Origin: Gammaproteobacteria bacterium
GTDB lineage: Bacteria; Pseudomonadota; Gammaproteobacteria; Pseudomonadales; JAUIET01
Direction: 5' to 3'
DNA: 64,000 bases
Assembly (NCBI GenBank): GCA_030429735.1
Contig: JAUIET010000002.1
Location: 604,414 to 668,413 of the forward strand
Shown here: positions 36,050 to 40,857 of the stretch, in pieces
Layout: every line of letters begins with the position of its first letter
Position numbering within the stretch: position 1 is the first letter of the stretch
Made by a program: the position numbers and the translations under genes
The notes under the pieces: model-generated
What the model was told of the DNA's origin: nothing
Databases searched by the model: none
What the model saw: the letters and a program-made list of their open reading frames with translations, nothing else

Positions 36050-36127
36050 TCAATTTAATTGACTGTTAGAATCAAATCTAACGATGGTGCATTCTCCAGG
36101 TATCCGGCTTATACGCCTGCATCAACG

Positions 36128-36166
36128 CTGATTTCATCTACCTAACAATGTAGATCAGGTATTTTT
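36128..36166 (+). terminator. weak terminator candidate after the MFS gene
   Basis: Stem ATCTAC/GTAGAT (36136-36141 with 36150-36155), extended by CTG/CAG across a bulge, followed within 5 nt by ATTTTT. Low stem G+C makes it a poor terminator, but it is the only hairpin with a T-run in this spacer. Confidence 0.3.
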
Positions 36167-36250
36167 AATTATCCATGCCTGTACGGAAAGCATAAACCTA
36201 TATTAGGCATATCGCTATGTAGAAAGAGAGTGTTGTGAAAATTCTCTTTG

Positions 36251-36264
36251 GCAGAAATTTCTGC
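36251..36264. promoter_or_regulatory. perfect 14-bp palindrome GCAGAAATTTCTGC
   Basis: Candidate operator 189 nt before the KAS III start. It is the longest perfect palindrome in the spacer, and it lies in the control region of a unit that encodes a HTH protein. There is no direct evidence for binding. Confidence 0.35.
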
Positions 36265-36452
36265 AGGGATTATTAGCTTTCTATTGTTCTAACGAATATT
36301 TAATTGATCGTTCCATACAGAAATGTTAGGTAATAAACACATATTTGAATCGTTATTAATTTCCGTTGTCTACCCTTATGTAGCTTCGTTGTCAGCCAGA
36401 TTTTCCGGTTGCGGCTATGCATTTCAATTGTTCGTTATAAGAGGGAGAGACA

Positions 36453-37460
36453 ATGGATCAGCTTGCAGTATCAAAAATCGCGGGAGTCGGGCATTTTGTT
36501 CCGGACAATATTGTATTATCGTCAGATCTTATGGAAGCGTTTGACAGTGAGCATCGTTTTGGTCTGCCAGCGCGATATTTGGCAACCCTGGTAGGTGTTC
36601 AGGAACGCCGGTGGGCAGATCATGGCAGCATGCCATCGTCATTAGCTATTCGTGCCAGCGAACGCGCCATTTGCAACGCCGGTATTTCCGCGAATGAGAT
36701 CGACTTCGTACTGTACTGTGGTATTGAACGTGACTGGCAGGAACCTGCGACCTCGCATCGCATTCAGCACGAGATTGGTGCTGTAAACGCTACCTGTCTG
36801 GATCTTACCAACGCGTGTCATGGCTTTATGAACGGGCTCAGTTTTGCAGATGCGTATATCGCGTCAGGCAATGCGCAGACTTTCTTGGTGTGTACGGCTG
36901 AAATTGGCTCACGATTGTCCAGGGCGGCGCTGGCACGATTGCAGAGCCCTGACACTACTAAAGACCAACTCAGACGGCTGCTTGGGGCGCTGACGATAGG
37001 TGATGCGGGCGCTGCCATGGTAATACAGCGGTCGTCAAACGATTCCGGGTTCAAGAAATTCAAGTTTGAGAGTGCCGGTCAGCATACCGAGCTTTGTCAC
37101 TATACGTCAGCGGCGAACGACGAATTTCATGGCCAGATGTTAATGGAGGCTATCTGCAAGGAGACCCTGTCATTCCATACGAACGTGATGGCAAGTACCT
37201 ATCAGTCATTACAATGGCACGCATCAGACGTAGATAGGCTGTACGCCCACCAGGTGGGCACCCGTGTGCATCGTAGCGTTTGCCAGCTAACTGGGGTTTC
37301 ACCTGACAGGGCTCCGTCTATTGTCGAACGGTTTGGTAATATCGCGAGCGCCACCATACCGGTTTTATTCAGTTTGTATCCTCCGGCAAAAGGCGATAAA
37401 GTGCTCATTATAAGCTCAGGCAGTGGGATGACCATAGGGCAGTCCGCACTGGTGGCATAA
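36453..37460 (+). CDS. beta-ketoacyl-ACP synthase III-like enzyme
   Basis: Thiolase-fold condensing enzyme of 335 residues in the FabH family. The catalytic triad is complete: Cys122 in TNACHGFMNGL, His266 in YAHQVGT and Asn296 in RFGNIASAT. The N-terminal GVGHFVPDNIV and C-terminal SSGSGMTIG are also present. It is unlike housekeeping FabH in the His block (AHQVG rather than PHQAN) and is not beside other fab genes. Such stand-alone KAS III enzymes often make or transfer acyl groups in signal or secondary-metabolite synthesis. It is followed at 31 nt by a seven-helix HTH protein, suggesting one transcript. The product is unknown. Confidence 0.87.
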   Translation: MDQLAVSKIAGVGHFVPDNIVLSSDLMEAFDSEHRFGLPARYLATLVGVQERRWADHGSMPSSLAIRASERAICNAGISANEIDFVLYCGIERDWQEPATSHRIQHEIGAVNATCLDLTNACHGFMNGLSFADAYIASGNAQTFLVCTAEIGSRLSRAALARLQSPDTTKDQLRRLLGALTIGDAGAAMVIQRSSNDSGFKKFKFESAGQHTELCHYTSAANDEFHGQMLMEAICKETLSFHTNVMASTYQSLQWHASDVDRLYAHQVGTRVHRSVCQLTGVSPDRAPSIVERFGNIASATIPVLFSLYPPAKGDKVLIISSGSGMTIGQSALVA

Positions 37461-37491
37461 AACAACTCTCCTAGGGGGCGGTAGGCAGCAC

Positions 37492-38421
37492 GTGACCTTG
37501 TATATCATTCCATCGTTGATTGCGATAATCGCTAAGCTTTTTTTGCTGTGGATTGCACGGCGTAATTTCGCTGAGAACCTGGTGTTTACCGCTCTGTTGG
37601 GCGCTCTGTTAGTAATGAATGCGGTGGAGTTTTCGTCCTACTTCATCACAAATGACATGCTTAACGATTATGTGTGGCTGATGCAGTTGTATTTTTTGTC
37701 TGCACTCGTCGCCACTGCAACCATTACTGACTTGTGCCTGGTGATAACTGGCCTGGCGCAACCACTGTGGCGCCAAATCAACGCACTCCTCACGGTCACC
37801 GTTGCACTGCTGACCATAGTGCCAGGCACGGTAATTGCTGGCGTGGAGCCCATGGGTGAGTTCGTACGACGAATTCCGGGCCCAGCGCTTCCGGTCTGGA
37901 CCACTTATGTGGTGCTTGCTATTGCTGCGAGCGTTGGCTTGTTGCTTCGCGGCGTGCGGCGGGCTCCTAGCCGACACCAGCAAAGGCAAAGCTGCGCGTT
38001 GGCGCTTGCGTTCCTTCCTGGCTTGTTAAGTGCTGGCTTGATTGTGGTTCTAATGAGTTTTGGGTACCGGGTTAACGGCGCGGTGACCATGTCGATTATG
38101 TCGACTCTGCTGGCCGTCGTGTTTTTTCTATCCGAGTCGCGTTACCATTTATTTCGACTGCTGAGTGCGATTCCTTCAACAGTGGAATACCAAACTAACC
38201 GTCGCGTGCAGACGCTGGTTAACAAGCTTAAATACATTGCTTCAATGCCAGACCGACAATCTGAGCTGAAAGCCATTCTTGCCGAACTTGAACAGGCCAG
38301 TATCGCGATGGCCATTGATGCGAACGATGGAAATGTCTCTAAAACGGCACGCGCGATGAAGGTAAGTCGAAATACCATCCTTAGAAAACGTCAGTCAACA
38401 GCCAGCCCAACGAATAAATAG
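37492..38421 (+). CDS. seven-helix membrane protein with C-terminal Fis-type HTH
   Basis: Protein of 309 residues. Seven hydrophobic segments fall at about 2-20, 28-50, 60-85, 93-115, 131-152, 169-192 and 196-218. The layout and the block around NAVEFSSYF and LMQLYFLSAL resemble the N-terminal 7TM sensor of some histidine kinases. No kinase or transmitter follows. A linker helix (about 225-275) leads to a Fis/NtrC-type HTH at 276-302 (DGNVSKTARAMKVSRNTILRKR), which would be cytoplasmic. I therefore predict a membrane-bound one-component transcription regulator. The start is GTG 37492. It is 31 nt behind the KAS III gene, so ligand and enzyme may be linked (inference). Confidence 0.72.
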   Translation: MTLYIIPSLIAIIAKLFLLWIARRNFAENLVFTALLGALLVMNAVEFSSYFITNDMLNDYVWLMQLYFLSALVATATITDLCLVITGLAQPLWRQINALLTVTVALLTIVPGTVIAGVEPMGEFVRRIPGPALPVWTTYVVLAIAASVGLLLRGVRRAPSRHQQRQSCALALAFLPGLLSAGLIVVLMSFGYRVNGAVTMSIMSTLLAVVFFLSESRYHLFRLLSAIPSTVEYQTNRRVQTLVNKLKYIASMPDRQSELKAILAELEQASIAMAIDANDGNVSKTARAMKVSRNTILRKRQSTASPTNK

Positions 38422-40047: not shown

Positions 40048-40857
40048 TTAATCGCGCAATCGCAGCAATGCACTCCACGGCAGAATAAGATGGTATTTGC
40101 TGCTTGTTGTGGTGTAGCCAAGGTTGAACAGTGATTGTTGTATCCCAGGTCCGTGCATAGCACCCCAGGGAATAACAACGCTATCGTAATATTTGCCGGC
40201 TTCCAAAAAAGAATCCACAAGATGGTCGTTACGCGTGTCGATTATATCGTCCCACACTTGCCTGGGTATCGCGTTCGATAATTGCTCAATCAACAAACGC
40301 CAGTTGAGACTGTCGAAGTCACCCTTGGTGATTTGCTCGAGCAACTCAAGGTTTTGTTTTATCCACGTTTGTGTTTCTGGCGACAGTTCGTGCAGGTAGA
40401 CATCGGCATTAACAATATCAATGCCGGAGCTGCCTCGTGCTTGAGAGACATCTGCGACCCGGTGTGCGCCCTGAACAATGCACAGGCTCGGTTGTTCTAT
40501 TACGCTACGCGCCAAGTTCAGCCTTGTTTCAGAGGCGCATTTGTAATTGGTTCGGGCGGGTCTTCGCGTATCGCTGATACCTTCTTCAAGAATCAGGGAA
40601 GAGGGCGTTGCGAATGAACGGTACAGAGCGTCGTAACTCCTTGCCGCACCGAAATGCATCATGCCAACCAAGCGCACGTTGGCGTGACCGTCTCGTTGCA
40701 GCTGAGTCTCCAGAGTGTGTACGCCACTCGCACTGAACTTTATGTAAGAGCCGCTTAGCTCCACAACCATGGACAGTGCTGCGTAGGCCAGATACGCCAG
40801 CAGCACACACAAAGCGGTAGCTACCAGACTGAAACCCAGCAGCACCTTCTTCAGCAT
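40048..40857 (-). CDS. membrane-anchored TraB-like protein
   Basis: A 269-residue protein with an N-terminal transmembrane anchor (about residues 4-28) and a domain that fits the TraB/GumN superfamily. Conserved-looking blocks are VRLVGMMHFGA, LILEEGISD, and near the C terminus DSVVIPWGAMHGPGIQQSLFNLGY, which carries the GxxH-xxG pattern of the family. TraB-family members are often taken as metalloproteases, but activity is not established for most. It is 23 nt upstream of a D-aminoacylase-like gene, so the pair may act on the same peptide or acyl-amino-acid substrate in the periplasm. Confidence 0.62.
   Translation of the reverse strand: MLKKVLLGFSLVATALCVLLAYLAYAALSMVVELSGSYIKFSASGVHTLETQLQRDGHANVRLVGMMHFGAARSYDALYRSFATPSSLILEEGISDTRRPARTNYKCASETRLNLARSVIEQPSLCIVQGAHRVADVSQARGSSGIDIVNADVYLHELSPETQTWIKQNLELLEQITKGDFDSLNWRLLIEQLSNAIPRQVWDDIIDTRNDHLVDSFLEAGKYYDSVVIPWGAMHGPGIQQSLFNLGYTTTSSKYHLILPWSALLRLRD

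Follow-up and report, generated by a model that had tools for sequence, protein, structure and literature searches.

A gene pair present in many marine bacteria appears to encode a so far undescribed means of chemical communication, its receptor acting directly as the gene switch. The pair consists of a gene for an OleA-type ketosynthase of the KAS III fold and a gene for a seven-helix membrane protein ending in a helix-turn-helix (7TM-HTH protein). We analyzed the pair in a 64,000-nucleotide stretch of a Gammaproteobacteria bacterium genome (contig JAUIET010000002.1), referred to as the window. The ketosynthase gene (36453–37460, plus strand) encodes 335 amino acids and was assigned by Pfam, PDB sequence match, residue alignment and structure match. 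It is followed after a gap of 31 nt by the gene of the 7TM-HTH protein (37492–38421, plus strand; Pfam, AlphaFold), which has a GTG start and encodes 309 amino acids. An ORF check returned both reading frames and their spacing exactly as given in the original prediction, which had been made from the sequence alone. We regard it as fairly probable that the two genes encode a cognate acyl-signal synthase and its membrane-bound one-component receptor and transcription regulator.

The enzyme resembles OleA rather than FabH or PqsD

The enzyme matched the Pfam families ACP_syn_III (2e-12) and ACP_syn_III_C (2.2e-14), and its best sequence match in the PDB was OleA of Xanthomonas campestris (2.8e-33). 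OleA was also the top structural match of the AlphaFold model (pLDDT 91), with a Z score of 44.4 and an rmsd of 2.0 over 330 residues, compared to a Z score of about 41.5 for the best FabH and PqsD entries. The thiolase fold and the Cys-His-Asn triad expected of an OleA-type enzyme are present. The full triad claimed by the original prediction, C122 (codon 36816–36818), H266 (37248–37250) and N296 (37338–37340; all plus strand), aligned with the KAS III triad in the 41 homologues compared. The prediction had not mentioned E97 (codon 36741–36743, plus strand; motif CGIERDWQEPAT), which aligns with the position of the catalytic glutamates Glu117 of OleA and Glu105 of PpyS. All four residues are invariant across the 41 homologues. 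The glutamate of OleA acts as the base in head-to-head condensation, and its equivalent in PpyS is essential (PMC4578411). The enzyme probably joins two fatty-acyl chains. Since it scored 192.9 bits against NCBIfam PRK09258, below the curated cut-off of 285, its sequence marks it as OleA-like by predicted mechanism rather than as an OleA orthologue.

Against the fabH model TIGR00747 the enzyme reached 134.9 bits (cut-off 292.1), and a distinct FabH-type KAS III, matching NCBIfam NF005703 with 621.6 bits, is encoded on another contig of the genome. On the basis of the OleA-type glutamate, the low TIGR00747 score and the separate KAS III gene we rejected an ordinary FabH paralogue, the identity that had been named as fatal to the original prediction. 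That prediction had also drawn an analogy to PqsD. A PqsD-like identity was rejected, as PqsD scored below OleA in sequence and in structure; the reading as an acyl-signal synthase was kept, with OleA and its two-acyl Claisen condensation replacing PqsD as the nearest enzyme.

A GPCR-like membrane domain is fused to a Fis-type HTH

The AlphaFold model of the 7TM-HTH protein, built with 29 relatives, had a mean pLDDT of 91. The seven hydrophobic segments noted earlier appeared in it as seven transmembrane helices (residues 5–21, 30–49, 54–85, 91–109, 133–157, 161–189 and 197–215), which form a membrane domain with a predicted GPCR-like fold (residues 1–215; 37492–38136, plus strand). TM4 and TM5 are connected by a predicted beta-hairpin (residues 115–129; 37834–37878, plus strand) adjoining a conserved PG motif. 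With a cytoplasmic C-terminus, an orientation weakly favored by the charge distribution (positive-inside count), the hairpin would lie outside the membrane. A linker helix leads from the membrane domain to a three-helix Fis-type HTH (residues 256–304; 38257–38403, plus strand). This region matched Pfam HTH_8 (PF02954) with 2.4e-6 and 27.6 bits, above the gathering score of 22, and the family profile matched Fis (1fip, 1.1e-7) and structures of NtrC-family DNA-binding domains. Against HisKA_7TM (PF16927) the membrane domain scored 2.4e-6 and 28.0 bits, slightly short of the gathering score of 28.6, which the relatives L016, L017 and L105 exceed. A Pfam search detected neither a kinase nor an AAA+ domain, in agreement with the original prediction, and the protein lacks the AAA+ domain that identifies sigma-54 enhancer-binding proteins by its Walker A and GAFTGA motifs.

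The best PDB matches of the membrane domain in Foldseek were GPCRs, with modest scores (best E 9e-4). VIA-align superimposed the domain on mGlu2 with a Z score of 18.8 and an rmsd of 2.9 over 202 residues, which exceeds the Z score of about 14 that the tool gives for helical models when nothing clearly matches. All 50 matches listed by VIA-align were GPCRs (Z 16.2–18.8), in a comparison set restricted to Foldseek's top 1000, such that the absence of microbial rhodopsins from the list is uninformative. At the sequence level, the domain did not match GPCR families. The likeness seen in the model is best described as a resemblance of fold rather than as shown homology.

The two genes stay together in many genomic neighborhoods

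We scanned GTDB species genomes with the enzyme as seed, blind to its partner, and obtained 35 loci, six of them distant (L044–L049) and 29 close. The 7TM gene was located directly downstream on the same strand in 25 of the 28 evaluable close relatives, so that the adjacency on which the original prediction depended is retained. In this count, L041 was left out, as its contig ends inside the gene, and L022 was included with only the start of the 7TM gene on the contig. The three exceptions were L015 from the sister species, L038 on a short contig and the broken copy L043. About fifteen loci represent one syntenic block in Pseudohongiella-like genomes and were counted once; the pair then occurs in at least a dozen unrelated neighborhoods. 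The flanking genes differ between the pair in the window, the other pair found in its genome, L016/L039, L040, the three Exilibacterium pairs, the two Pseudomaricurvus pairs, the two pairs in L042, the Pseudohongiella-like block and the multiple pairs of G198, G310 and G405. Receptor-first searches agreed with the enzyme-seeded scan on the pairing, demonstrating linkage of the synthase gene to the receptor gene across species. No third gene such as oleB, oleC or oleD recurs with the pair, and comparison of the neighborhoods revealed no export, resistance or tailoring genes conserved beside it across lineages. In five pairs the two ORFs overlap by 25 nt, which suggests translational coupling.

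Several genomes contain more than one pair. G198 carries three KAS III genes of the enzyme's clade, each adjoining a 7TM gene, the maximum per genome. The second pair in the window genome is 51% (enzyme) and 26% (receptor) identical to the first. The distribution of the 7TM family is patchy, since a phylum-wide sample of 398 genomes yielded it in the window genome only; across the order it was present in 11 of 391 genomes. The sister genome (G001) encodes an enzyme 64% identical to that of the window without an adjacent 7TM gene. On another contig, its 7TM-HTH gene follows a gene for a GGDEF-EAL protein whose N-terminus is receiver-like, in place of a KAS III gene (L010:2109–4885). Receptors without a neighboring synthase also exist.

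Two further arrangements were observed. In Exilibacterium tricleocarpae, two extra tandem 7TM-HTH genes without their own synthase (L018:1000–2914) lie about 3 kb upstream of a complete pair. In the window itself, a 269-amino-acid ORF without NCBIfam match (40048–40857, minus strand) has an aldehyde dehydrogenase-like gene upstream and an amidohydrolase gene downstream on the same strand.

Receptors diverge with their enzymes and vary in their modules

Distance matrices of the enzyme and the 7TM domain correlated with r = 0.94 over 33 pairs, a value reached in none of 5000 permutations, with shared descent uncontrolled. The two trees agree broadly and contain the same groups. The receptor diverges faster than the enzyme: between window and sister species, the 7TM-HTH proteins are 31–32% identical, compared to the 64% of the enzymes.

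The receptors beside the enzyme occur in several forms, namely as 7TM-HTH proteins of 300–345 amino acids, as proteins of about 460–540 amino acids with an inserted domain, and as proteins of about 850 amino acids in which a region weakly similar to the sigma-54 activator domain precedes HTH_8. Walker A and GAFTGA motifs were absent from nine long receptor relatives. In the second pair of the window genome, the receptor (L011:9879–10754; G000:C21) has lost its HTH while the KAS III is intact; this receptor may be a decoy or may have a different output. The HTH of the L033 receptor is degenerate. The single layout of the original prediction, a seven-helix protein with HTH, was confirmed, and is amended by the GPCR-like fold and by an output domain that varies among relatives.

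The synthase varies as well. In three genomes of one genus (G837, G841 and G851), the gene directly upstream of the receptor encodes FeeM, an N-acyl amino acid synthase and thereby another type of acyl-signal synthase, in place of KAS III (G837 protein: PF21926, 9.6e-33). The receptors at these loci (L140:3497–5932, L143:2777–5218 and L144:4547–6992) have 510–540 amino acids.

A single metagenomic ORF of 916 amino acids (L145:4353–7103, minus strand; G817:C47) combines a Venus-flytrap domain, a 7TM domain and HTH_8. Its N-terminal periplasmic binding domain matched Peripla_BP_6 (3.9e-50) and ANF_receptor (3.5e-26), and its domains follow the order seen in class C GPCRs, with a bacterial DNA-binding domain attached. 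A separate binding-protein-like ORF is located nearby.

We tentatively propose, with a confidence just short of even, that there is a family of bacterial GPCR-fold receptors which are transcription factors, each provided with its own acyl-signal synthase, and that exchange within this family affects the synthase (OleA-type or FeeM) as well as the output module, and extends even to the domain that binds the ligand.

Candidate operators occur in a related clade

The original prediction had considered the palindrome-rich operon leader (36050–36452, plus strand; inverted repeats at 36064–36083, 36136–36155 and 36251–36264) as the operator. The leader contains five exact 6-bp inverted repeats, compared to 1.5 in dinucleotide shuffles, a count reached by 24 of 500 shuffles and by 4% of the 400-nt tiles of the window. 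No single palindrome in it exceeded chance, and no leader repeat common to the window and the sister species, or to the window and the second pair, was found. A pattern picked from the window itself, TGTTAGA-N6-TCTAACA, has its best match there but was no rarer than expected and was discarded.

In the Pseudohongiella-like clade (L017–L037), two inverted repeats are conspicuous in a leader that has diverged elsewhere. Allowing for one mismatch at most, TGTAGGA-N5-TCCTACA was present in 11 of 16 enzyme promoters, its center 123–158 bp (mostly 141–148 bp) upstream of a conserved GATAATG. ATTTCAT-N3-TGAAAT was also present in 11 of the 16, 70–80 bp upstream of GATAATG and mostly at the strikingly fixed distance of 78–80 bp. 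If no more than one mismatch is allowed, the first motif has 0–3 sites per genome, and where any is present, one usually precedes the enzyme gene; the second is about as rare. The remaining genomic sites are near varied genes at near-chance frequency, and a regulon could not be derived from the palindrome. Both repeats are degenerate in several members, and no site of the clade type was evident in the window leader or in other lineages. The two repeats, nearly restricted to the enzyme promoter, are candidate operators, but they might bind another regulator. The idea of a palindromic operator therefore finds candidates in the related clade, whereas the window leader is near chance and contains no convincing site.

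Proposed function and alternative explanations

In the proposed circuit, the enzyme would condense two acyl thioesters head to head and release a lipophilic product, a long-chain beta-keto acid or ketone or an alpha-pyrone. The 7TM domain would sense this product within the membrane, and binding would change how the HTH domains are arranged at the cytoplasmic face. The 7TM-HTH protein, which would remain membrane-bound and would probably act as a dimer, probably controls its own operon and may regulate a few other promoters, with no kinase or response regulator between sensing and DNA. Such a circuit would resemble an autoinducer loop of the LuxI/LuxR or CqsA/CqsS kind, with sensing and DNA binding united in a single protein that spans the membrane several times. 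The ligand, the binding to DNA and the signalling between cells are what we infer for the pair.

The same genes could serve a homeostatic feedback, in which the enzyme produces a membrane lipid, either a ketone, a pyrone or the precursor of a hydrocarbon. In the same cell, the 7TM-HTH protein would sense this lipid or the membrane state and adjust synthesis, without any intercellular signal. The very hydrophobic products of OleA, the fit of a membrane ligand to a membrane receptor, the ability of the FeeM partner to make aminolipids and conserved promoter elements indicative mainly of autoregulation all agree with this explanation. However, up to three divergent pairs per genome, fast-diverging receptors and the swap of the synthase type from KAS III to FeeM look more like signal-specific cognate pairs, and we consider homeostasis rather unlikely. 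A role in defense appears more doubtful still. Pseudomonas PyrS makes the pseudopyronine antibiotics by the same type of reaction (PMC4578411), and the enzyme might produce an antibiotic-like pyrone or ketone, with the 7TM-HTH protein as a local regulator answering another cue; conserved export, resistance or tailoring genes, though, do not accompany the pair in different lineages. That an ordinary FabH-like paralogue merely happens to lie beside an unrelated membrane protein, as the separated genes of the sister species might suggest, is highly improbable. It is already contradicted by the conserved pairing in most evaluable relatives and many neighborhoods, and the genome's separate FabH-type gene and the OleA-type glutamate of the enzyme also speak against it.

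The reading as a synthase with a one-component receptor is best supported, by the conserved pairing and by an enzyme distinct from FabH; what changed from the original prediction is the enzyme type, the fold of the 7TM domain, the variable output domain and the operator. If it is true, a bacterial receptor of GPCR fold binds a fatty-acyl-derived signal and regulates DNA directly, without kinase or G protein. OleA/PpyS-type ketosynthases without known product would gain a testable function, and simple synthase-receptor pairs, several per genome, would become available for the study of specificity co-evolution. It would also bear on the question whether bacterial GPCR-like 7TM domains are real relatives of the animal receptors.

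Comparison with known systems

The logic of a synthase paired with its receptor is already known; the function of the present pair is what we infer. OleA from the long-chain olefin pathway of X. campestris has the fold, the Cys-His-Asn triad and the catalytic glutamate in common with the enzyme. It is only 25–26% identical, and here the partner is a 7TM-HTH protein, with neither oleB, oleC nor oleD recurring beside the pair. PpyS and PyrS of Photorhabdus and Pseudomonas are OleA-like ketosynthases with the catalytic glutamate, as here, and the photopyrones made by PpyS are cell-cell signals read by PluR (PMC4578411). PluR is a LuxR-like receptor, whereas here the gene next to the synthase gene encodes a polytopic membrane protein that carries a Fis-type HTH.

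In the CqsA/CqsS and LqsA/LqsS systems, the synthase and receptor genes are adjacent and the synthases are PLP-dependent. In these alpha-hydroxyketone quorum-sensing systems, a receptor in the membrane reads an acyl-derived signal of the ketone type (PMC3285556, PMC3376566). CqsS and LqsS are histidine kinases; in contrast, the present synthase has a KAS III fold and the receptor is fused directly to a DNA-binding domain.

ToxR, CadC and TcpP contain a winged HTH and a periplasmic sensor domain. Like the 7TM-HTH protein, they are membrane-bound one-component DNA-binding proteins, and the main text of a survey of transmembrane regulators mentions neither HTH_8 nor seven-helix regulators (PMC10269533). 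In contrast to theirs, the HTH of the protein described here is of the Fis type, lies at the C-terminus and is attached to a GPCR-like 7TM domain. The sensor model of the HisKA_7TM histidine kinases (PF16927) matches many members of the receptor family, weakly to clearly; the kinase output of those proteins is replaced here by the Fis-type HTH.

The open-access papers searched yielded no described system with this gene layout. A 7TM-HTH regulator of GPCR-like fold is joined to a synthase of the OleA or FeeM type in none of the closest systems. PpyS/PluR and CqsA/CqsS are closest in logic, ToxR-like regulators and HisKA_7TM kinases closest in form.
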